Below, in pieces: positions 5,173 through 55,999 of a stretch of 64,000 bases of DNA. Numbering within the stretch: the stretch's first letter is position 1; each line of letters begins with the position of its first letter. The stretch lies in contig JAJEAL010000093.1 in the NCBI GenBank assembly GCA_022822785.1, positions 62,001 through 126,000 on the forward strand, written 5' to 3'. The position numbers and the translations under genes were made by a program. Under the pieces are notes generated by a model. The model ran no database searches, was not told the origin of the DNA, and saw nothing but the letters and a program-made list of their open reading frames with translations. This DNA comes from Candidatus Poribacteria bacterium (GTDB lineage Bacteria; Poribacteria; WGA-4E; PCPOR2b).

Positions 5173-5421
5173 ATGGAAACCTTGAAGATTCGAGAAATAG
5201 CTTCGATCAAAATGCTAGATATTGAAATGTCCGAAGATGAGTTTGATGTATGCGAGAAATGTTTGGAATATGTTTTACAAAGTTGTTCACCTGATGAAAT
5301 TGAAGCAGTGAGCGGAGCCACACAAGCAGAACTTGACGAGATATGGCGTCAGATGGCTACCACACTCAGGAAACACACGGATCTCCGAGAATCACCAAGT
5401 ACATCTGGTAGAGGAGTCTGA
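5173..5421 (+). CDS. Small acidic protein between nuoK and nuoL
   Basis: 82 residues from ATG 5173, preceded by AAGGGTG; an upstream in-frame start at 5164 is possible. The protein is acidic and probably helical (EMSEDEFDVCEKCLEYVLQS, then a second helix around QAELDEIWRQMATTLRKHT) with no membrane segment. It starts one base after the broken basic gene and its stop (5419-5421) is followed at once by the nuoL start at 5423, so it is translationally packed into the nuo operon. I do not recognise a family. A partner (antitoxin-like) role for the preceding basic protein is a guess from charge and order. Confidence 0.6.
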   Translation: METLKIREIASIKMLDIEMSEDEFDVCEKCLEYVLQSCSPDEIEAVSGATQAELDEIWRQMATTLRKHTDLRESPSTSGRGV

Positions 5422-5422
5422 A

Positions 5423-7300
5423 ATGTCGAAAGACCTAATAACTATACTTCTGATTGCTCCGCTAATTGGATTTCTAATCAACGGACTGTTCGGAAAATGG
5501 CTAAAAAATATAAGTGGGGGGATAGCCTCTCTCGCCGTGCTAATATCGTTCATTATCAGTGCGTTCTTCGTATTCCCTGCGGTCCGTGGTGGGGATGCGC
5601 TAAAGGAAACACTCTATGAATGGATCCCCATCGAATCTTTTGCCATCGGTTTCCATGTTGATGCTCTGACCACCGTAATGCTCCTTGTCATTACAGGGGT
5701 CGGCTTCCTCATCCATATCTATTCGATTGGCTACATGAATCACGATCCAGGGCGAACACGCTATTTTGCCTATCTCAACCTGTTTGTGTTCGCCATGCTA
5801 ATCCTCGTTTTAGCGAACAATTACTTGATGATGTTCATCGGTTGGGAAGGGGTTGGACTCTGTTCTTATCTATTAATCGGTTTCTGGTTCGAGCGAAAAT
5901 CCGCCACCGATGCCGGCAAGAAAGCCTTCATCGTCAACCGAATCGGCGATTTTGGATTCCTGCTGGGGATGTTCACACTCTTTGCAGCGTTTGGCACATT
6001 GAACTTTGACACACTTTTTGGACGCGCCGAATCCAACACTTATGAGCAGGTTTTCGGGGCAAGTACCCTCATCGTTGCAACCCTGTTACTCTTTGTCGGT
6101 GCAGTCGGTAAGTCCGCACAAATTCCCCTCTATGTTTGGCTTCCCGATGCAATGGAGGGGCCAACACCTGTTAGTGCCCTGATCCATGCCGCGACAATGG
6201 TCACGGCTGGCGTCTACATGGTCGCACGGTCATCAATCCTATTTAACCTAGCGCATACTGGCGTCGTCGTCGCTTGGGTTGGCGTACTGACTGCCTTGTT
6301 TGCCGCTACGATGGCGTTGGCCGCGAATGACATTAAGCGCGTACTAGCGTATTCAACCGTGAGTCAACTCGGTTATATGTTCGTCGGTGTGGGGGTCGGT
6401 GCGTACACCTCTGGTATCTTCCACCTGATGACACACGCTTTCTTCAAAGGGTTGATGTTCCTCACCGCTGGCAGTGTGATGCACGCTATGTCGGACGAAC
6501 TGGATATGCGCAAAATGGGCGGATTGAGGTCAAAGCTACCCATTACCTATTGGACATTTCTCATCGGTGCCCTCGCAATCGCCGGCTTCCCGTTCTTGAG
6601 CGGTTTCTGGAGTAAAGATGAAATTCTCCACAACGCTTGGGATAGTGGGTATCAAGTAATTTTTGGGATTGGCCTGCTTACAGCATTTCTCACGGCATTT
6701 TACATGTTTCGTCTAATTTTTGTGGTTTTTCACGGCGAATCGCGGGTCGACTCAGAGGTCGAGTCGCATCTGCACGAATCCCCACCGGTGATGTGGATTC
6801 CGCTCGTGTTGTTAGCAATTCCCTCCTTAATCATCGGCGTAATCGTCGGTTGGGGTGGAGAGCATAGCGCAATTCACAATTTTTTGGGCAGTGTATTCAC
6901 GCATCACGGCGAATCGCATCATAGCAACCCGATCCCGTTTATGATTATTTCGTCAATTGTTGGGATTGCGGGTATTTTGGTAGCTTGGCTCATATATCGC
7001 AGCAAAACCCCGCTCAGTGAACCAATAAGTCCGGTGCACAAACTCCTCGCGAATAAATACTACATCGACGAAATTTACAACGCCGTTTTTGTGCAGCCCA
7101 TACGGGGTATATCCTACTACCTATTCTGGAAGATTATGGACATCGGTATCATCGATGGGCTTGTGAATTTAACCGCATTTGTTCTCCGTGGAATTGGAGG
7201 CTTGATTCGGCGGATGCAGACAGGTGTTGTCCAAGCCTACGTTGTGTCAATGGTCATCGGTATTATCATTTTCTTGGGATACTATCTGTTTATTCGATGA
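5423..7300 (+). CDS. nuoL: NADH-quinone oxidoreductase subunit L
   Basis: Largest antiporter-like ion-pumping subunit at the tip of the complex I membrane arm. 625 residues, the normal length. Signatures are GWEGVGLCSYLLIGFWF (conserved membrane Glu, TM5), VGKSAQIPLYVWLPDAMEGP with the pump Lys (TM7), and SALIHAATMVTAGVYMV. The long C-terminal lateral helix region and last TM (residues about 545-625) are present. ATG 5423 has GAGGAG 8 bases upstream; the longer frame from 5333 would overlap the small gene before it and is rejected. Confidence 0.97.
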   Translation: MSKDLITILLIAPLIGFLINGLFGKWLKNISGGIASLAVLISFIISAFFVFPAVRGGDALKETLYEWIPIESFAIGFHVDALTTVMLLVITGVGFLIHIYSIGYMNHDPGRTRYFAYLNLFVFAMLILVLANNYLMMFIGWEGVGLCSYLLIGFWFERKSATDAGKKAFIVNRIGDFGFLLGMFTLFAAFGTLNFDTLFGRAESNTYEQVFGASTLIVATLLLFVGAVGKSAQIPLYVWLPDAMEGPTPVSALIHAATMVTAGVYMVARSSILFNLAHTGVVVAWVGVLTALFAATMALAANDIKRVLAYSTVSQLGYMFVGVGVGAYTSGIFHLMTHAFFKGLMFLTAGSVMHAMSDELDMRKMGGLRSKLPITYWTFLIGALAIAGFPFLSGFWSKDEILHNAWDSGYQVIFGIGLLTAFLTAFYMFRLIFVVFHGESRVDSEVESHLHESPPVMWIPLVLLAIPSLIIGVIVGWGGEHSAIHNFLGSVFTHHGESHHSNPIPFMIISSIVGIAGILVAWLIYRSKTPLSEPISPVHKLLANKYYIDEIYNAVFVQPIRGISYYLFWKIMDIGIIDGLVNLTAFVLRGIGGLIRRMQTGVVQAYVVSMVIGIIIFLGYYLFIR

Positions 7301-45762: not shown

Positions 45763-47862
45763 ATGAATTTCAGGTATCGTCTGGGAGTAGACATCGGGGG
45801 AACGTTCACCGATGCAACCCTGATCAATGAGGAAACCGGTGAAATCCGCGTCGGCAAAGTGCCTTCGACACCCCAAGACCCGTCACACGGTTTTATGGAA
45901 GCAACGTATCGTATACTACGCGAAGCCAACGTGTCGCCGGACGAGGTCGGCTACGTTGTTCACGGCACAACAGTGGCAACCAACTCAATCATTGAAGGGA
46001 AGGTTGCCCGAACAGGCTTCATTACAACCGACGGCTTTCGCGATCTGTTAGAGATTCAGCGGCAGATACGACCATCGCTCTACGATTTGCAATTTGAAAA
46101 GCCTCGTCCCCTTACCCCCCGTTACCTGTGTTTCGGCGTACCTGAGCGATTGGATGCCCAAGGGAATGTGCTCACCCCGCTCGACGAGTCCGCAGTCAGG
46201 AATGCAGCAGAACAACTCCGTCGAGAGGACGTGGAATCGATCGCTGTCTGCTTCCTCCACGCCTACATCAATCCGAGCCACGAGAAACGGACGGGGGAGA
46301 TTCTACGCGAAGCGCTCCCCGACACCGTCATCTCCCTCTCATCAGAGGTCGCACCGGAGTTTAGAGAGTACTTTCGGGCAAGTACGACGGTCATCAACGC
46401 TTCTATCAGACCCGTCGTAGAGCGTTATCTCCAGAGTATTGAAGCGCGGCTGCGCGCGGAAGGGCTAGCGGCGGAGCTGCTTGTGATGCAGAGCAGCGGC
46501 GGCGTTTTCACATTTGAAGCAGCGAGCGAAAAACCGGTCTTCATGGTGGAATCGGGGCCCGCAGCAGGCGTCATTGCCGCGACCTATCTCGGTACGACGT
46601 TAGCATGTCCGGATGTTATCTCCTTCGACATGGGCGGCACAACAGCGAAGGCAGGACTTATCCAGAACGGGACGCCAACGATAACCAAAGACTACGAAGT
46701 AGGGACAGCGGCGCAAACCGGCGTGGGCGCTTCCCGCGGGGCAGGCTATCCCATCCGCACCCCCGTCATCGACCTTGTGGAAATCGGTGCCGGCGGCGGC
46801 TCCATCGCATGGGTGGACTCCGGCGGGGTGCTGCGAGTCGGACCGCAGAGCGCAGGCGCGGATCCAGGTCCGGTGTGCTACGGAACAGGCGGGGCAGAGC
46901 CAACCATCACCGATGCCAATCTGGTGTTGGGACGACTCAACCCCAGCTTCTTCTTGGGCGGTGAGATTGAATTGGACGTTGAGGCGGCCCGCCAAGCGAT
47001 CCAAGAACAGTGCGCTGATCCGTTGAACCTCGATCTCGTAGAAGCCGCTCACGGTATCGTGGAGATTGCCAACGCTGCAATGGTCAATGCCCTACGCCTT
47101 GTCTCTGTTCAACGCGGTTACGATCCCAGAGATTTCGTACTAACCGCGTTTGGCGGCGCGGGCCCAGTACATGCCAACCGCTTGGCGGCAGAGATTGATG
47201 TGCCCACCACGATTATCCCCATGAGCCCCGGCACAACCTCAGCCATGGGCTTATTGGTAACAGACCTCAAGCACGACTACTCCACAACCCTTATCCAACA
47301 TGTCGATCAATTAGATGCGGCGGCGGTGGAGGGAACCTACCGAGAGTTAGAAGCACAAGGCGGTGCAAGTCTGGAACGGGAAGGCGTGCGTCCAGAGGAC
47401 ATCAGTTTCCTCCGACAGGTGGATACGCGCTATGTCGGACAAAGCTACGAACTGACAGTCCCCCTACCGCCAGAGCAGCTAGACGCTTCAAAGATTGACC
47501 GTGTACTTGAACAGTTCCATATCGAGCATGACCGTGCTTACGGCTATAGTGCGCCCACAGAACCGGTCGAGTTCGTAAACTTGCGACTCACCGCAATCGG
47601 CAAAATCGCCAAGCCCCGCCTACGCGAATTGGAGGGAAACAACACAGACATCGCTGCAGCACAGAAAGCGACCCGATCCGTGTATTTTGCCGAGAGCGAC
47701 GGCTACGTTGATTGCCCCATCTATGACCGTTATCTTCTGGGTCCCGGCTGCGTCTTGACAGGGCCGGCAATCGTCGAGGAGATCGATTCCACCACCGTTA
47801 TCCACCCCGGCTACCGGGCACAAGTTGACAGGTTCGGCAACCTGATCCTGACCCGAATTTAA
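45763..47862 (+). CDS. Hydantoinase/oxoprolinase subunit A (HyuA)
   Basis: 699 residues. The ATP-binding actin-like N-terminus reads VDIGGTFTDATLI (about 5-17), then VVHGTTVATNSIIEGK; the hydantoinase domain has SFDMGGTTAK and the metal/nucleotide text GGAGPVHANRLA (about 463-474). These enzymes hydrolyse N-methylhydantoin, 5-oxoproline or acetone-type substrates with ATP. The usual B subunit gene (HyuB) is not next to it, so the active complex must be completed elsewhere or the gene acts alone. Confidence 0.93.
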   Translation: MNFRYRLGVDIGGTFTDATLINEETGEIRVGKVPSTPQDPSHGFMEATYRILREANVSPDEVGYVVHGTTVATNSIIEGKVARTGFITTDGFRDLLEIQRQIRPSLYDLQFEKPRPLTPRYLCFGVPERLDAQGNVLTPLDESAVRNAAEQLRREDVESIAVCFLHAYINPSHEKRTGEILREALPDTVISLSSEVAPEFREYFRASTTVINASIRPVVERYLQSIEARLRAEGLAAELLVMQSSGGVFTFEAASEKPVFMVESGPAAGVIAATYLGTTLACPDVISFDMGGTTAKAGLIQNGTPTITKDYEVGTAAQTGVGASRGAGYPIRTPVIDLVEIGAGGGSIAWVDSGGVLRVGPQSAGADPGPVCYGTGGAEPTITDANLVLGRLNPSFFLGGEIELDVEAARQAIQEQCADPLNLDLVEAAHGIVEIANAAMVNALRLVSVQRGYDPRDFVLTAFGGAGPVHANRLAAEIDVPTTIIPMSPGTTSAMGLLVTDLKHDYSTTLIQHVDQLDAAAVEGTYRELEAQGGASLEREGVRPEDISFLRQVDTRYVGQSYELTVPLPPEQLDASKIDRVLEQFHIEHDRAYGYSAPTEPVEFVNLRLTAIGKIAKPRLRELEGNNTDIAAAQKATRSVYFAESDGYVDCPIYDRYLLGPGCVLTGPAIVEEIDSTTVIHPGYRAQVDRFGNLILTRI

Positions 47863-48510
47863 CCCTGATAGGACTTACGCACTTCAATTCGTAATAGCCC
47901 CCGTTTCTTAATCCCGATTTATCGGGGGACGGGGCTTTAAGCAGCCAACCGCATAAGCCCTGGCGGAATGATTGACTTTTTGTTTGCAACATGATATTCC
48001 GATATGTTAAAATAACAATCACAGATGGCAGAAGCAGCTATCAGCTATGATCCTGACAATCTGTTAATCCCCGATCCCGCGTAGTGATTCCTGTTCTGCC
48101 TAGGCTTGCCTGCCCCGATTCATTGGGGATTTATCGGGGGCACGGACTTCCAATCTATCAGGGAGGATCTTCCGATTCCCGGGATTCTGGTGAAACGGAA
48201 CGGAACCGATGTATCGGGGGAACGGCATAAATCAGGGTTCAGAAACCCAAACCACCTCACTAAAACGCACTAAAACGCACACTCAAGTAAAAAATATGTG
48301 AGGAAATGTGAGAATATGTGACATTTTGTGACATCTGATCCAAATCAAAACCAATGTTCATCAACGATCCATCCCAAAAATAAAAAAATATGCAAAATAT
48401 GTGACACTTTGTGACATTTTGTGACATTAGAATAGAAATATCCCATAGGTTCTCTTATCGGATATCTTTGCCCGCCTTAACTTCCTTACCTTCGCCTCAA
48501 TCCCCTCCAA
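47863..48510. repeat. Repeat-rich gap between HyuA and the HigBA locus
   Basis: No gene is seen. It holds an isolated terminal-repeat sequence AGGACTTACGCA (47870-47881, see the element at 58177), several CCCGAT/TATCGGGG hairpins (47914-47935, 48115-48139, 48215-48225), a tandem CACTAAAACG repeat (48257-48279), and groups of TGTGACA (48316-48336 and 48398-48428, five copies spaced 10-12 bases within groups). The TGTGACA series resembles iterons or operator sites. The region marks the left edge of the defence island. Confidence 0.6.
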
Positions 48511-48517
48511 AAAAGAG

Positions 48518-48567
48518 TTGCAATCTTCATGGTAAATCTGCCATAATATGGCAAGTCTACCATGAAG
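48518..48567 (+). promoter_or_regulatory. Promoter buried in a palindromic operator of the HigBA-like locus
   Basis: TTGCAA (48518-48523) and CATAAT (48542-48547) are 18 bases apart. The -10 box sits in the centre of the imperfect palindrome CTTCATGGTA...TACCATGAAG (48525-48567, 19-base arms with three mismatches). This is how antitoxin-bound operators block toxin-antitoxin promoters. The downstream toxin starts at 48598. Confidence 0.65.
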
Positions 48568-48597
48568 TGAGAGGAAGATATAATTTTGAACGAAGCG

Positions 48598-48786
48598 ATG
48601 AAAGATGTAACTTGGATTGGGGATTCTCGCGAGCAAGTCCGACGTTTTCCTAAAGCGGTAAGACGGACAGTCGGCGAAGCATTACGTTTTGCCCAGCGCG
48701 GTGCGAAACACCCTAAAGCAAAACCGATGCGGGGCATTGGATCCGGTGTGTGGGAAATCGCGCAAAAACTGGAGGCAAAACAATGA
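48598..48786 (+). pseudogene. HigB-like (phage Gp49/RelE fold) toxin with internal deletion
   Basis: 62 residues from ATG 48598. The first 54 residues (KDVTWIGDSREQVRRFP, then ALRFAQRGAKHPKAKPMRGIGSGVWEIA) match the N-terminal half of HigB/Gp49-type toxins. Intact members then have about 50 more residues with the Y/T...AVYTV...LHAFQKK catalytic strands. Here the frame goes directly to QKLEAKQ and stops, so the C-terminal catalytic half is lost in frame. The toxin is probably inactive. Its stop overlaps the antitoxin start (ATGA). Confidence 0.7.
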
Positions 48787-49112
48787 GTGAAGATGTTAAA
48801 GTCGAGCAGAGCTCTGGGAATGTGTTTAAGGATTTAGGATTTTCTGATGCCGAAGCCGAGCGAGCCTTGGTGAAGGCAGATTTAGCGCTTGAAATCCACA
48901 AAATCATTGAAGCGCAAAAACTCACACAGGCAAAAGCAGGGAAAATTCTCGGTGTTGACCCATCTGATATTTCAAGACTGAAGGGTGGTGATTTTAGTCG
49001 CTTTAGCGTGGAGCGATTGTTTACACTGCTCAATCGATTTAACCGTAACATAGAGATTCGGATTACACCAGCGGAAGGTAGAGAGGGACATCAGCGAGTC
49101 GTTGCGGTTTAG
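48783..49112 (+). CDS. HigA-like XRE-family antitoxin
   Basis: 109 residues from ATG 48783. The HTH (about 40-80) reads KLTQAKAGKILGVDPSDISRLKGG, and the C-terminal NRFNRNIEIRI is typical of HigA-type antitoxins of Gp49-like toxins. It should bind the palindromic promoter region upstream. It overlaps the toxin by 4 bases and seems intact though the toxin is truncated. Confidence 0.85.
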   Translation: MSEDVKVEQSSGNVFKDLGFSDAEAERALVKADLALEIHKIIEAQKLTQAKAGKILGVDPSDISRLKGGDFSRFSVERLFTLLNRFNRNIEIRITPAEGREGHQRVVAV

Positions 49113-49557
49113 GGTTGTTTAACGCCTCCGACGTGAATCAGCAGCTCGCAGCCGTCTGTGATGGAATCAGCAAGCTGAACCAGAACCACATCGACCACCT
49201 GACGCTCCACGAATCGTGAAGTGATAAAAGTCGCAAGGTATGGGCACGTCCCCTCGCCTCCTTTGTGGCGAAACTTCAAGAGATGGGGTTTGAAAGGAGA
49301 CATAATGAAGATATTATTGATGAAAGGCGCAAATAAGTTATTGGTAGGCGCTGTTTCCAACTGCGCCGGTATAGAGTGTCCAAGTAATTCTAAAGTTCAC
49401 CATAAAAACTCCTTTGCGGCTAAAGTCCAAACCCCAATAAATCGGAATTAAGCAAAGCATTTTGTGGTATAATTTATAAGTGAAAACAAGCAATTGGCAC
49501 TACCCCTAAATGAGTCCGCAGTAGGGTAAACCATTATGATGAACTGGAGATAATCCA
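49113..49557 (+). other. Gap with gene debris and a promoter-like site
   Basis: No full gene. A stop-free stretch 49120-49218 reads FNASDVNQQLAAVCDGISKL and looks like the end of a lost protein. The text CTTCAAGAGATGGGGTTTGA (about 49274-49293) recurs in similar form at 53036-53056, before another small gene. ATG 49305 opens a 48-codon frame of doubtful reality. TGGTATAAT at 49465-49473 is an extended -10 box that may drive the methylase at 49558. Confidence 0.5.
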
Positions 49558-50952
49558 ATGTTAACTAAGGCGTTTATCGAAGAGCGGAAATTAGCGAGGG
49601 ATTCCCAATTTTTTATGAAGACCCTCGCACCAACAAATAGCGAGGGGGACCTCCGGTTTGTTCTCGAAAAGCTTGGGAGGCTGCCCTCAGATTTTGATAG
49701 GGAACTACTCTTAAATCTGCTAAAACATGCACATCCGAGTATTCGTCTGCTCGCTGTTAAGAATCTCGGGAAATTAAAGGATGTAATGTTGCTTGATGCG
49801 ATTTCTAAATTCGCAAATAGTGAAACAGACACGGCTACTCGTCGTGAAGCAGTCTCGGCGATTGGACGGATGCGGACACCGAAAGCGATTCCACTCCTTA
49901 TCGAATTTCTAAAGGACGCTGATCCAAAAGTTGTCTTACAAGCGATTCGGGGGCTCATCATTTTTAAGATGCGCCCTGAAGCGCAATCTGCGCTCACAGA
50001 GTTGGCGAACCACCCGAATGAGTTGATTCAAGATGTTATCAATCAGGAATTGAGCGCGAAAACTGAATCAAAACCAGAAAAACAACCAGCCCACCCCAAA
50101 AGTTTAGATGCCCTCAAGAATGTCATCGTTCATGCCGATGTGAGAGATGTATTGAGTGCTACACCTGATGAATCTGTCCACCTGACCTTCACCTCGCCGC
50201 CATACTACAACGCCCGTGACTACACGCTCTACGAGAGCTACGCGGCATACCTACAGTTCCTCACCGATATTTTTAGAGAGGTACATCGTGTTACAAAGGA
50301 GGGACGATTTTTTGTCCTCAATACCTCACCCGTTATCGTTCCGCGTATGAGTCGCGCCCACTCCAGCAAACGGTACGCTATTCCTTTTGATATTCACCCA
50401 ATGCTGACGCAGATCGGATGGGAGTTCATCGAGGATATCATCTGGGTGAAGCCGGAACGAACCGCCAAGAACCGGAACGGCGGATTTTTCCAGCATCGTA
50501 AACCGCTCGGATACAAGGCAAACTCTGTCTCAGAATATGTGATGGTCTACCGCAAAAAAACGGATAAGTTGATAGATTGGAATATGCGTCAATACGACGA
50601 TGGGACGGTTGAGGCAAGTTTGATCGAGGGAGACTACGAGAAAACGAATGTGTGGCAGATCCACCCAGCGAGCGACAAGGTTCACCCGGCGATCTTTCCA
50701 ACCGATTTAGCGAGGCGGATTATCCAGTTCTATTCCTTTGAAGGAGATTTAGTGTTTGACCCGTTTGCGGGCGTCGGAACGGTGGGTAACGCAGCCGCCA
50801 TGTTAGGGCGCTATTTTTTCCTTGCCGAACAAGAGGGGCAATACGTCGAGAGGGCGGTGTGGACTATTGACGCGTCGCTGTTTACGAATGTCAGTCCTAA
50901 ATACCTTAACTTGACTGAATTTAGAACCATATTAAATAAGGAGAAAGAGTGA
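49558..50952 (+). CDS. HEAT-repeat/beta-class DNA methyltransferase fusion
   Basis: 464 residues. The first 165 form alpha-helical HEAT-like repeats (RLLAVKNLGKL, RREAVSAIGRM, VLQAIRGL at about 31-residue spacing). A DNA methylase follows, with motif IV TSPPYYNARDY (about 212-222) before motif I DPFAGVGTVG (about 400), the order of the beta class; TSPPY favours N4-cytosine methylation. It overlaps the next gene by one base. The linked endonuclease is CfrBI-like, whose known partner is also an N4-cytosine methylase, so the pairing agrees. The HEAT extension is unusual for a type II methylase. Confidence 0.88.
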   Translation: MLTKAFIEERKLARDSQFFMKTLAPTNSEGDLRFVLEKLGRLPSDFDRELLLNLLKHAHPSIRLLAVKNLGKLKDVMLLDAISKFANSETDTATRREAVSAIGRMRTPKAIPLLIEFLKDADPKVVLQAIRGLIIFKMRPEAQSALTELANHPNELIQDVINQELSAKTESKPEKQPAHPKSLDALKNVIVHADVRDVLSATPDESVHLTFTSPPYYNARDYTLYESYAAYLQFLTDIFREVHRVTKEGRFFVLNTSPVIVPRMSRAHSSKRYAIPFDIHPMLTQIGWEFIEDIIWVKPERTAKNRNGGFFQHRKPLGYKANSVSEYVMVYRKKTDKLIDWNMRQYDDGTVEASLIEGDYEKTNVWQIHPASDKVHPAIFPTDLARRIIQFYSFEGDLVFDPFAGVGTVGNAAAMLGRYFFLAEQEGQYVERAVWTIDASLFTNVSPKYLNLTEFRTILNKEKE

Positions 50953-51953
50953 TGACTATCACCGGCATTGTCGTAAAGAATATTATCCGCAAATTGTTGG
51001 CGGGCGAGGATTATCGCATCGAGGTCGTCGCACTTCTTGACGCCCAATTTTTGCAATATGTCATTGATTTCTTCGGTCGTGTTGTTGATGCAAAGTTGAA
51101 GAATCAGTCTGTGACGATTGATTGGTATAAAGCGGAATTCCTCAATCCAGAACATCCAGAATTTAATCCATCGGATATTGCAATACATTCAGGGTTGAAC
51201 AAGAAAACGATTACGAATATGTATAAATCTGGTGCGAAAGCGGTTGTGCTTGAGGCATCTATGGAACATTACGATGTATTACTCAATGCGATTCAGGAGT
51301 TGACAGAACAGAGTGATGTTGATGTTACATTGACGATAAAATTTCGGGCGGTCAGCGTTGATCTTGATATTAACGAAAGTTTAATCGTTATCAATACGCT
51401 TGCAGTCAAACGCGCCGCATTGCGAGGTGGATTATGGAGCACGGCAGGAAAGCAGGTTGAAAAACCGTTGATGACAACGCTTTGCGCCCTATATCGCGTT
51501 CCATTGAAGTATTTTAATCAATCTGTTCCTTCTGCGTCAACAGGTCAAGTGATCCGTGAAGCGGATTTCTATCTGGAGGGGGACACTGGCTTGAGTCACC
51601 GTTGCGAGGTGAAGTTGATGGGTAAAGGAAATCCGGAAAGCGTGGATGCTCCAATCGCCCGCGGTAGCAAAGTGTTTGTCGCAGATACACTCTCTGATCA
51701 GAATAAAGCGCAACTCAATGAGGCAGGCATCCATTGGGTGGAACTACGAGATGAAAATGGTTACAAGCGGTTTGAACAGGTCTTAACAGCGTTGTCAATT
51801 CCTTGCCAACCGTTTGAAGACGATGTGCAAGGAGCGTTGGATAAAATCTTCCCTGTTATACTTTCGGACGATGTTCAATCTTCAGTCACTCCTGACGTTA
51901 TTCTTCGAGAGCAGAGCGGTGATGATTCACAGCTGCTAGTGGACTTTGACTAA
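50952..51953 (+). CDS. CfrBI-like type II restriction endonuclease
   Basis: 333 residues from ATG 50952. The middle and C-terminus match the CfrBI family: LWSTAGKQVEKPLMTTLCAL (about 161-180), then READFYLEG...HRCEVKLMGKGNPES, with PD-(D/E)XK residues Asp205, Glu219 and Lys221, and VFVADTLSDQNKAQL. CfrBI cuts C^CWWGG; whether this enzyme keeps that specificity is unknown. It starts at the last base of the methylase stop, so the two are made together. It looks intact. Confidence 0.78.
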   Translation: MTITGIVVKNIIRKLLAGEDYRIEVVALLDAQFLQYVIDFFGRVVDAKLKNQSVTIDWYKAEFLNPEHPEFNPSDIAIHSGLNKKTITNMYKSGAKAVVLEASMEHYDVLLNAIQELTEQSDVDVTLTIKFRAVSVDLDINESLIVINTLAVKRAALRGGLWSTAGKQVEKPLMTTLCALYRVPLKYFNQSVPSASTGQVIREADFYLEGDTGLSHRCEVKLMGKGNPESVDAPIARGSKVFVADTLSDQNKAQLNEAGIHWVELRDENGYKRFEQVLTALSIPCQPFEDDVQGALDKIFPVILSDDVQSSVTPDVILREQSGDDSQLLVDFD

Positions 51954-52012
51954 AATAAAGTGGACGGGGACGGTATCGTCCTAAGCAACCGGACGATCGC
52001 CTCCCCATTGTG

Positions 52013-52105
52013 ATGGACAAGGTGACGCCGATTGATACAGAATTGAAACTTCCACCCCTTGATGGTGGAGCGCGGGAGAAAAGAATAAATCATGAAACAC
52101 AATAA
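52013..52105 (+). other. 30-codon frame, possible remnant
   Basis: ATG 52013 opens MDKVTPIDTELKLPPLDGGA and ends HETQ at 52105. The reading is open further upstream (PDDRLPIV), suggesting the tail of a lost protein. No family recognised. It fills the 161-base gap after the endonuclease. Confidence 0.3.
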
Positions 52106-52114
52106 GGAAAAAAA

Positions 52115-52552
52115 ATGAAAAGACTCGTTATCCTTGCATGTTCACAGCGCAAGGTTCAAGACAAGTGCTTAATACCTGCGATAGAACGGTATGATGGTCC
52201 TGCGTATAAGGTTGTGCGGAAGTGGTTGCGCACCATTCCTGATGCCCGGCTCCACCATGATTTCCTCATTTTATCGGCGGAATTCGGGCTGATTTCCGAG
52301 AGCCGGCGTATCCCTTACTATGACCGTCGCATGACTGTCGAGCGGGCTAAAGAATTGCATGAGGAAACCCTCTCTGCTCTCAAGCCGATTTTAAGTTCTG
52401 GCATCTATCGCGCCGTTTTTGTCTGCATGGGCAAGACCTATCGGGGTGCAATTGAAGGCGTTGATGCCTTTTTTCCTGACATACAATACTCTCACGGTAG
52501 GATTGGTATGCAGCTCTCTCAACTCCGCCAATTTTTGTATAAGGCGGAATAA
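52115..52552 (+). CDS. DUF6884-like protein
   Basis: 145 residues, ATG 52115 with AAGGA upstream. It has LVILACSQRK (about 4-13), FLILSAEFGLISESRRIPYYDRRM (about 50-73), and VFVCMGKTYRGAI (about 106-118), which match the DUF6884 pattern (LxSCSxxK ... LSAxYGLI ... YDxxM). This family is related to YaaA-like/deazaguanine-pathway-like folds and is often seen in phage and defence islands, but the reaction is not known. It sits between two methylase sets. Confidence 0.72.
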   Translation: MKRLVILACSQRKVQDKCLIPAIERYDGPAYKVVRKWLRTIPDARLHHDFLILSAEFGLISESRRIPYYDRRMTVERAKELHEETLSALKPILSSGIYRAVFVCMGKTYRGAIEGVDAFFPDIQYSHGRIGMQLSQLRQFLYKAE

Positions 52553-52573
52553 TTACAATAGCGAGGTAAAAAT

Positions 52574-52990
52574 ATGAATTTAAAGCAAAAGATTAGGCGA
52601 GTTACCGGCAAAACTGGTTTGTATTATACCGCTTTCAAGTTGTCTGAGCGTGGTTGGAATGTGTTTCCTCAAAGGAACGGTCTATATAAACCTAACATAT
52701 TGGTCTGTGAGAGCCTAGACGGAAGCCGAAAGATGTGCGTCCAAGTCAGGAGCTTTAAGGATCGAGACCCCGTTCAAATCAGCCAAGGGGGTCTGAAGTG
52801 CAATTATTGGGTTATGGTGCACGCCATCGCGTCTGGAAAACCAGAGGCTTACATTCTGCCTATTGATGAAGTCAAAAAGCATCTGAAGCACAACGCCGGT
52901 GGGAGTGCCGTATGGTTAAATGAGAAGTTTAAGTATTATGAAGACAATCAATTTAAAGAAAAATGGGAACAAATAGGAAAAGGTTGTTAA
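52574..52990 (+). CDS. PD-(D/E)XK-fold protein with altered catalytic residues
   Basis: 138 residues, ATG 52574. The order helix (GLYYTAFKLSERGW), then VFPQRNG, KPNILVCESLDG, and KMCVQVRS follows the alpha-beta-beta-beta core of restriction-endonuclease-like nucleases (ERGW...D-x-L-V...x-V-Q-V-K). The catalytic Asp is Asn41 and the Lys is Arg59, so it should be inactive as a nuclease; a binding or regulator role is possible. The fold call is from pattern and could be wrong. No known family named. Confidence 0.55.
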   Translation: MNLKQKIRRVTGKTGLYYTAFKLSERGWNVFPQRNGLYKPNILVCESLDGSRKMCVQVRSFKDRDPVQISQGGLKCNYWVMVHAIASGKPEAYILPIDEVKKHLKHNAGGSAVWLNEKFKYYEDNQFKEKWEQIGKGC

Positions 52991-53091
52991 TCCCCAAGGT
53001 AGGGCGTACATCCCCACGCCAACCTTGCGACGAACTTTCAAGAGATGGGGATTTGAGATGAACTAAACTACAGAATAGGAGATTTGAAACC

Positions 53092-53379
53092 ATGAGTAAA
53101 ATGCCAAAAATTGTTAAGGATTTGACCGGAGACAATCATTTAATTGACGAGGACATAAAAAGAATGGAGGGGAAAACTGTTAAGCAAGCAATCCGTGGCA
53201 CACGCGAAAGCATCAAAGGAGTACATGAAAGTGAGGTTTTATATATCGAGTTTACGGACGGTGATATTCTTGCCATAGATACAGGTTCAGATTTAATCCA
53301 GATTAAATCAAAGACGAAGCCGGAGGAGGCTCATATAGATTTTATGTTTACATGGGACCCTGAAACGCCTAGTAGTTAG
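53092..53379 (+). CDS. Small hypothetical protein in the defence island
   Basis: 95 residues, ATG 53092 with AGGAG upstream. Charged, with a helix (about 17-40, DEDIKRMEGKTVKQAIRGTRESI) and a beta part (VLYIEFTDGDILAIDTG, about 50-66). No motif recognised. It precedes the second beta-class methylase by 44 bases. The leader just upstream repeats text also found at 49274. Confidence 0.6.
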   Translation: MSKMPKIVKDLTGDNHLIDEDIKRMEGKTVKQAIRGTRESIKGVHESEVLYIEFTDGDILAIDTGSDLIQIKSKTKPEEAHIDFMFTWDPETPSS

Positions 53380-53423
53380 ATGTGATTATTTGTGGAGTGA
53401 TTTTAAAGTGAAAGGAGGCACGT

Positions 53424-54233
53424 ATGACCCAGATAGTAAATACCATTAAAGAAGGAGATTGCATCGAGTTGATGGGTGAAATGCCAGAGGGGTGCGTGGA
53501 TCTTATCATAACGGATCCACCCTTTGCCATTGACTTCAAAGCCGCCCGGCATAATTACAACCGCAACGGTGACCGTGTGCTCGAAGGCTACAACGAGGTT
53601 GAAGCAGATGATTATCTCGCTTTCACGCTCCAGTGGCTTGATGCTGCGACGCGGGTGTTAAAAGAGTCTGGAAGTATGTATATCTTTTCGGGCTGGAACC
53701 ACTTAAAAGATCTCTTAATCGCTATTGATCAATGCAATCTTACGACAGTCAACCACCTGATTTGGAAATATCAGTTCGGTGTCGTTACGAAGCGTAAGTT
53801 CGTTACCTCTCACTATCACTGTCTTTTTGTGTGCAAAAATGACAAAAAGCGCAAATTTTATCCCTATTGCCGATTTAACAAAGATGCTAAGACTGAAAAC
53901 GGGGGCTCCGCACACTATAAAGACAAAGAAGATGTATGGGAAATTAAGAGAGAGTATTGGCAGGGAGCAATCAAAACGCCCACAAAATTGCCTGCGGAAC
54001 TTATCGCTAAAATCCTCGATTATTCCAGCCAAAAAGGGGATGTTGTCTTGGACCCATTTTTAGGCTCTGGACAGGTCGCTGTAGTAAGTAAAATGAAGGG
54101 ACGGGGCTACATAGGCTTTGAGATCGTTCGTGAATATTATGAGTTTGCACGCGAGCGTCTTGAATCAGGAAAATATTTAATTCAAAAAGCGAAAGCGGAG
54201 CCTAGTTGGGATTTATTCGCAACGGACGCGTAA
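53424..54233 (+). CDS. Beta-class DNA methyltransferase (TDPPF)
   Basis: 269 residues, GGAGG ribosome site before ATG 53424. Motif IV TDPPFAIDF (about 30-38) comes before motif I DPFLGSGQVA (about 212-221), the beta order. TDPPF/Y suggests N6-adenine (as in DpnA/HinfI-type enzymes). A long target-recognition insert lies between. It is 6 bases before the next gene, an obvious partner. Confidence 0.9.
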   Translation: MTQIVNTIKEGDCIELMGEMPEGCVDLIITDPPFAIDFKAARHNYNRNGDRVLEGYNEVEADDYLAFTLQWLDAATRVLKESGSMYIFSGWNHLKDLLIAIDQCNLTTVNHLIWKYQFGVVTKRKFVTSHYHCLFVCKNDKKRKFYPYCRFNKDAKTENGGSAHYKDKEDVWEIKREYWQGAIKTPTKLPAELIAKILDYSSQKGDVVLDPFLGSGQVAVVSKMKGRGYIGFEIVREYYEFARERLESGKYLIQKAKAEPSWDLFATDA

Positions 54234-54239
54234 TCTACC

Positions 54240-54905
54240 ATGTTAACCTCCAAGATAATTGATACAGTCGAGCAATTGCAGGCCACCTCTCAGAATATAC
54301 CAAAGATATGGGACGGTAGAAGTGCCATCCTAGAGATGAAAGAGGGTGGGTCAACGCAATGGAGACAGATGGAATGGATGGGTTTTTACTTTGAGTTTTT
54401 ATGTCAAACCCATTTTGAAGATATAGTTGATATGCCCGGCAAGCGGTATGGGAGAACGGAATTTGACGCTTTTGCTGAAATCTCGTGGGATTTTAAGACC
54501 CACGCGGCTAACTCAGGCAATTATACCGTCATCACGAATGATAGGGAAGCGATAGCAAGCACGATAAGCGATTACGGTTACTACGGGGTGATTATCGCAA
54601 TCGGAGAAGTCGAATACAACGACGAGAACGGGACTTTCAAAAGATGGCACGACGCACTGAAAGGGGGAATTAGCGAATACGAAATAGATAGAATCAAGAG
54701 GGATGCACCATCAAGAAAACGTAAGACAAAAGTTGCGTTGTCGGAAATTCGCTTTGCCTGTTTTAATGCCGAAACATTAAGCGAATGTGCAGGTTCATTC
54801 CAGAAGGGTTTTAGAAATGCCGATGGCAATCCGAGGCGTGAAAAGGTCACGATAAATCTCCGAAGACTCCCGGATGATGCCCTTATTGCTATTCAGGAGT
54901 TCTAG
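54240..54905 (+). CDS. Candidate restriction endonuclease partner, unrecognised family
   Basis: 221 residues, ATG 54240, 6 bases after the methylase. A compact PD-(D/E)XK-like motif is visible: Asp76 in TEFDAFAEI and Asp84-Phe85-Lys86 in SWDFKTHA, after an aromatic helix WRQMEWMGFYFEFLCQTHFED (about 41-61). The rest has alpha/beta character and a basic patch (KRDAPSRKRKTK, about 155-168). I do not recognise a named endonuclease family. Gene order and the motif together suggest it cuts the site its methylase protects. This is inference. Confidence 0.6.
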   Translation: MLTSKIIDTVEQLQATSQNIPKIWDGRSAILEMKEGGSTQWRQMEWMGFYFEFLCQTHFEDIVDMPGKRYGRTEFDAFAEISWDFKTHAANSGNYTVITNDREAIASTISDYGYYGVIIAIGEVEYNDENGTFKRWHDALKGGISEYEIDRIKRDAPSRKRKTKVALSEIRFACFNAETLSECAGSFQKGFRNADGNPRREKVTINLRRLPDDALIAIQEF

Positions 54906-55023
54906 TCTAAAACCACCAATGATAAGTAAATCACATCTATCGGATAATCACTGCCATTAGGCCGGATATAAAGTCCGAATTGAAAGCGTTGTGCCAGCAG
55001 ATTTCTAGGGAGGGTTCTGACGA

Positions 55024-55878
55024 ATGACAAGCAGAAAAGGAATTTTTGTTAGTTATGTAATAGTGCCTATTTTGTGCTTGGGGATAATAAGTCTGCTGGG
55101 CATAAATGGAGGCGGTTGCAATACAGAGCCTCTGCTCAAAAAAAAGTTTCCATTTATCGTGAAAACCCCCTCTAATGTTGATTATGGCGCTATCTTGATA
55201 GAGTATAAACCTAATAGTATAATAAAAGAAAACAAGAAGTTTGGTTCTTACTACTACATCGTTAATTATATGCCGAGCGATGAAACTGTCACTCACGAAA
55301 TGGAAGAATACGAGGCGAATCAAATAGCAAGGAGTAATAAAAAACCAGAAGCAACTAAAATTCAAAGTAACGTTACGGATGGTTGGCTCGATTTATTTGC
55401 GTCCAACCTTATATCTTCAGGATTGAATGTATTTAATCCTGAAATAGTTTCTGGTTTTGCAGATTATGAAACATTGAAACGATACCAGACGCGCTATCTC
55501 ATCGCTGCTCAATTAATCAAAGAGGATGACGATGAAGTCACACGAGATGCTGCGCTTAAAGAGGAATGGAAGCAGTATATTTATGAAGATTGGTTAAAGA
55601 GAGGTGTTTTTGATATTATTTTTTACGATAAAAGCGACAATTCTCTACTCACAACTAATGATAAAACTTTCAGACCTCATAGTTACGCTGGACACACATA
55701 TGAGTCAAATCTACGTGATGGAGTAAACATTTCGGAGATAAGTCAAATTAACAAGCAGAAACATGGCATAAAGACGATTGATGAAACATTAGAATGGAAA
55801 GGTCAATTTGATGAAAATTGGCTCACATTTGAAAACTTTCAGGACATTAATTGGGTCAAAGCAGAATATATCCGATAA
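55024..55878 (+). CDS. Membrane-anchored hypothetical protein
   Basis: 284 residues, ATG 55024 with AGGGAGGG upstream. One N-terminal hydrophobic segment (about 7-28) ending GINGGGC, which could be a lipobox-like site though poor. The rest is a charged, Lys/Asp/Tyr-rich soluble domain with a helical middle (DEVTRDAALKEEWKQYIYED) and no known motif. AT-richer than neighbours, which agrees with the island. Function unknown. Confidence 0.65.
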   Translation: MTSRKGIFVSYVIVPILCLGIISLLGINGGGCNTEPLLKKKFPFIVKTPSNVDYGAILIEYKPNSIIKENKKFGSYYYIVNYMPSDETVTHEMEEYEANQIARSNKKPEATKIQSNVTDGWLDLFASNLISSGLNVFNPEIVSGFADYETLKRYQTRYLIAAQLIKEDDDEVTRDAALKEEWKQYIYEDWLKRGVFDIIFYDKSDNSLLTTNDKTFRPHSYAGHTYESNLRDGVNISEISQINKQKHGIKTIDETLEWKGQFDENWLTFENFQDINWVKAEYIR

Positions 55879-55999
55879 CCCGAATTATCAGACATTCTGG
55901 ACGTTAGAAAGGTAGACTAAAAGAACTTCGCAATCCGTTTGCTGATTCTCTTTGTCTCTGACTCTTCCCAGTTCGTCAACGCAGCCCAGGAGATTCTCC

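Follow-up and report, generated by a model that had tools for sequence, protein, structure and literature searches.

Do five neighbouring, co-directional genes in a genome of Candidatus Poribacteria make up one new defence system, or do they merely share a place on the chromosome? The window, the whole stretch of 64,000 nucleotides analysed here from a genome of 5.6 Mb, carries these genes, designated C to G (Table 1), after one restriction pair. The initial annotation had read them, in order, as a DUF6884-like protein, a dead nuclease fold, a small protein, a TDPPF methylase and an unknown nuclease, with a compact D...D-F-K motif, that it could not place in a known family. It had further suggested that they could be a novel type II system with extra modules, in which C and D might be accessory or regulatory parts. 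All five open reading frames were found on the + strand and placed as described, with intergenic gaps of 21, 101, 44 and 6 bp, in order.

Table 1. Features of the locus and its surroundings, in window coordinates
Feature	Position	Strand	Length	Assignment and basis
C	52115-52552	+	145 aa	DUF6884, with CSQRK and LSAEFG; probable passenger, outside the F-G pair
D	52574-52990	+	138 aa	Predicted PD-(D/E)XK-like protein, catalytic residues replaced (D to N, K to R); probable passenger
E	53092-53379	+	95 aa	Small orphan domain; probable passenger
F	53424-54233	+	269 aa	Beta-class DNA methylase, predicted modification enzyme of the pair
TDPPF catalytic motif (motif IV) of F	53511-53525	+		Sequence reading
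G	54240-54905	+	221 aa	Predicted PD-(D/E)XK type II restriction endonuclease; alignment, model, fold matches and linkage to F
Codon of invariant E45 of G	54372-54374	+		Start of helix 46-58; alignment and model
Codon of invariant D76 of G	54465-54467	+		Predicted metal-binding residue; alignment and model
Codons of D84-F85-K86 of G	54489-54497	+		Predicted catalytic D-x-K, strand 81-89; alignment and model
A and B	49558-51953	+		Separate CfrBI-type restriction-modification pair; HEAT-repeat methylase and CfrBI-family endonuclease
Variable island	47863-55951			From hydantoinase gene (ends at 47862) to MFS gene (starts at 55952)

The variable island

The five genes lie in an island between a hydantoinase gene and an MFS gene. 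The island is empty in the congener G022, where these two genes directly adjoin, and the congeners G019, G020 and G021 hold differing inserts at the same place. The restriction pair that precedes C to G consists of A (49558-50952) and B (50949-51953). It resembles the CfrBI restriction-modification system in that B matches RE_CfrBI (PF09516, E 8e-20), and differs from it in that A, an N6/N4 methylase, has an N-terminal HEAT-repeat region (PF13646, E 4.6e-32). This region also occurs in G021, which has the A-B pair and lacks C to G; A and B are independent of F and G.

Two smaller observations concern the same island. In G021 (L203, G021:C61) a copy of the hydantoinase 3' end is present beyond the A-B insert at 5345-5505, which looks like a duplication of the target by the insert. 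In the window, a Gp49/RelE-like toxin gene is reduced to 66 aa and adjoins an intact HTH_37 antitoxin-like gene (48586-48786 and 48750-49112); its toxin counterpart in G021 (L053) has about 120 aa, so an internal stretch seems to be missing from the window copy. Promoter and terminator scans gave results near the shuffled expectation, and no inference was drawn from them.

Genes C, D and E

Gene C matched DUF6884 above the cut-off (PF21818, E 1.7e-8, 35.1 bits against 30). Like DUF6884 and YaaA-like proteins it carries both motifs described for the family (PMC11701544), CxxxK as CSQRK and LSAxxG as LSAEFG; it is unlike the others in that it stands alone and adjoins the nuclease-fold protein D. 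No significant family was found for D or E. Compared with its plasmid homologues, D has PNI...VQVR in place of VDI...VQVK, and so lacks the intact catalytic D and (D/E/Q)-x-K. A model of low confidence (pLDDT 63) matched I-Ssp6803I (E 3e-4) and the N-terminal domain of Eco15I, which supports a prediction of D as a catalytically degenerate PD-(D/E)XK-like protein. The readings of C as DUF6884-like and of D as a dead nuclease fold were thus borne out, the latter at low model confidence.

Outside the window, D was found in one other genome of the 85 and as a paralogue in its own genome, and none was found in the phages and viral contigs searched. E occurs elsewhere mostly as the C-terminal part of proteins of about 400 aa. 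In the congener G020 the gene order is a fragment of B, C, D, two other genes and a fragment of G, with F gone. Between the window and G020, dS is 0.13-0.16 for C, D and the G fragment, 0.58-0.61 for the flanking genes and 0.71 for B, and identity steps up right after B. The low dS and this step point to C to G having moved as one block within the genus; a recent block exchange with G020, comprising C, D and at least part of G, explains these values. Such an exchange shows that C, D and the G fragment travelled together, not that they work together.

These data bear on the possibility that C and D are a unit of their own, a DUF6884 protein with a dead PD-(D/E)XK protein that perhaps binds damaged or modified DNA and travels beside restriction-modification systems. 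The 21 bp gap between the two genes is the same in the window's genome and in G020, both genes are intact in both (dN/dS 0.23 and 0.29), and DUF6884 proteins have been proposed as binders of DNA lesions (PMC11701544). However, the pair is found only in these two genomes, which share a recent transfer, and in the window's own genome D has its paralogue (G000:C32) on one contig and C (G000:C67) on another. DUF6884 is moreover scattered over 31 of the 85 genomes, mostly without D. We therefore consider a C-D unit unlikely, and C and D are better read as two passengers.

Gene G encodes a probable endonuclease

For G, which the initial annotation could not place in a known family, profile searches of Pfam, NCBIfam and PHROGs gave no match, and the sole profile trace was to the PADLOC REase_II model (E 0.009). 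Searches of the PDB by sequence, both single (phmmer) and profile, returned nothing for G; the best profile matches, to ribosomal protein L35 (E 0.5), were dismissed as chance. G or pieces of it are present in 28 of the 85 genomes of the phylum, and its closest homologues are from Candidatus Poribacteria. A scan of genome contigs revealed relatives in Patescibacteria, Kaiserbacteria, Zixiibacteriota, Planctomycetales, Armatimonadota, Bacteroidales, Treponema, Clostridia, Proteobacteria and Actinobacteria, and the phage collection held one, in a virus assigned to Methanobacteriales; the plasmids and viral contigs searched held none. In the Actinobacteria (L101-L105) the G domain is C-terminal in proteins of 468-491 aa with a C5 methylase adjoining, and in L104 a Vsr mismatch endonuclease was confirmed.

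The alignment of 30 sequences gave a set of invariant residues that includes W41, Q43, E45, W46, D76, D84, K86, R159, R161 and K162. The compact motif of the initial annotation corresponds to D76/D84-F-K86, and since D76, D84 and K86 are unchanged in the 30 homologues, down to 27% identity, it is not a chance resemblance. The AlphaFold2 model of G, for which the phage-record row was left out of the input, has a mean pLDDT of 93.8 and runs in the order helix 46-58, strands 77-79, 81-89 and 96-101, helix 102-112 and strand 115-126. This order, one helix, then three strands, a second helix and a last strand, is that of the PD-(D/E)XK core; D76 lies immediately ahead of the first strand, and the second carries D84-F-K86. 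The best fold match in the PDB was BglI (E 2.3e-3, probability 0.90, TM 0.36), followed by SfiI, EcoRV, DpnI, HincII, BcnI and PvuII. Each match is weak, with no E below 1e-3 and TM of about 0.3-0.4, and the leading matches are nearly all type II endonucleases.

BglI, EcoRV, HincII and PvuII belong to the beta branch of PD-(D/E)XK enzymes (PMC4081073). G resembles these endonucleases, and SfiI by fold match, in its predicted core topology and D...D-x-K, in having the size of a compact enzyme and in its adjoining methylase gene. It is unlike them in that no similarity was found by phmmer or profile, TM-scores are low and the spacing from D76 to D84 is short. G represents a probable endonuclease family that has no name in the curated protein databases searched.

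Gene F and its linkage to G

The TDPPF methylase of the initial annotation matched N6_N4_Mtase (PF01555, E 1.3e-39), and F aligns with solved structures of beta-class N6/N4 methylases, the nearest of which include CcrM, MboIIA and RsrI. F is unlike CcrM in scoring below every NCBIfam equivalog cut-off, and its identification as CcrM was rejected on that ground. The window's own genome has a second F-like methylase (G000:C90:160640-161425, L209), with 79% identity and no adjoining G.

Immediately upstream of G, a position that F occupies in the window, 21 other related loci also have F (75-87% identity), and F-like methylases adjoin G in other phyla too. The two genes were tallied by our own count from separate F and G searches of the 85 related genomes. 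Full-length F is present in 39, with G beside it in 22, a remnant of G in one (G022) and no G in 16. Four of the 22 (G029, G058, G060 and G061) have a disrupted G, so that F is present with G absent or broken in 21 genomes (16 absent, five broken or remnant). G without F was found in four genomes. Three of these (G048, G057 and G074) have a C5 methylase two genes downstream of G, and only one, G078, keeps G without an evident protecting methylase: its G is open, and neither F nor a close relative of that C5 methylase is present. The G078 protein carries F75S and R159Q at positions that are invariant in the other aligned sequences.

The methylase therefore outlives loss of the endonuclease, but hardly any genome shows the opposite case, a pattern to be expected of a G that does harm when unprotected. 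Methylases without a partner are a known theme (PMC6471742). Where the two genes are paired, both are under purifying selection (dN/dS 0.02-0.05 for F and 0.06-0.09 for G). Solitary F is still constrained (median dN/dS 0.048 over 52 non-independent pairs), and G near a C5 methylase is under weaker constraint (0.22-0.28). Most carriers in family f4 have F/G variants at one chromosomal place, flanked by a sugar-isomerase-like or D-aminoacyl-tRNA-deacylase-like gene and by a TPP-decarboxylase-like gene (names by sequence reading). This natural series at one locus gives a direct view of the rule by which methylases persist longer than endonucleases.

Probable exchange of methylase partners

Methylases of other classes accompany G elsewhere. 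C5 methylases adjoin G relatives in phage, Clostridia, Proteobacteria and Actinobacteria, and an MT-A70 methylase adjoins one in Treponema. With the classes labelled by tblastn and Pfam, the labels need four changes on the G tree and a single group of C5-paired G sequences was rejected (AU p 0.0065); the C5 label takes in three Poribacteria loci in which the C5 gene does not directly adjoin G, and the tree contains long branches. The support for partner exchange on this tree is good but not final, and we infer that the methylase partners of G were exchanged. More tentatively, and at somewhat less than even odds, the G family may keep its DNA target while the protecting methylase is swapped among the beta N6/N4, C5-cytosine and MT-A70 N6-adenine classes. 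A target conserved in this way would have to contain both C and A.

At the loci L043, L044 and L046 a PD-Lambda-5_A-like protein (a weak match, checked for L044) and an unnamed protein of 312-332 aa lie between G and the C5 methylase, and these genes are possibly a separate defence system.

The weak fold matches leave some room for G as a nuclease-fold protein that does something other than restriction, for example homing or nicking, or that serves the methylase as an accessory subunit. A subunit of that kind would be expected with one methylase class, however, and the occurrence of G with three classes, together with its near absence where there is no methylase, argues for a toxic nuclease in need of protection. 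We judge another role for G to be very improbable.

Recognition site

Across 14 sampled genomes, avoidance of ungapped, non-degenerate palindromes singled out no site for F and G: genomes lacking G, which may once have had the system, avoid these palindromes as well, and two of those used as non-carriers (G082 and G083) hold F fragments. The sampled genomes of family f4 strongly avoid CTAG and GGCC (observed/expected often below 0.2). CTAG is at the expected level in the window's genome (0.98).

Conclusions

The explanation that we favour, with a probability of a little under nine in ten, is that F and G together make up a type II restriction-modification system of two genes and that C, D and E are passengers of the island. 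F would methylate a short site in the chromosomal DNA of the host, and G, as a PD-(D/E)XK endonuclease like those of the EcoRV/BglI (beta) branch, would cut that site on unmethylated incoming DNA. Cleavage by G and protection of the same site by F are thus both predicted. C, D and E would belong to the same defence island as passengers, C and D having travelled with at least part of G in this genus. The computed evidence comprises the layout, the invariant motif, the predicted fold, the linkage, the asymmetric loss, the purifying selection and the varied methylase classes. The weak fold matches, the palindrome avoidance that singled out no site and the open G of G078, a genome with neither F nor a close C5 relative, run against this explanation, although the two substitutions in the G078 protein fall at otherwise invariant positions.

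That C to G form one extended restriction system, with C, D and E accessory or regulatory to F and G, is the least credible reading, because, although the genes are co-directional with short gaps and a block of them moved together (dS 0.13-0.16 for C, D and the G fragment against 0.58-0.71 outside), F and G occur without C, D or E in 21 other genomes and also in other phyla, the distributions of C, D and E are unrelated, no second genome among the 85 has all five genes, and G020 retains C and D though F is lost and G is a fragment. Of the novel type II system with extra modules, what stands is the type II-like F-G pair with its unnamed endonuclease; the five-gene set and the accessory parts do not, and the question of a new defence system of five genes can be closed.

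The F-G locus is a system of ordinary type, with an endonuclease family that has no name and an evolutionary history that is instructive. For this probable family, an alignment, a motif and a model are now ready for testing. If the protecting methylase is indeed swapped while the target is kept, the path from a pair to a methylase alone, and on to an endonuclease with another methylase, would be traceable at a single locus within one bacterial family.
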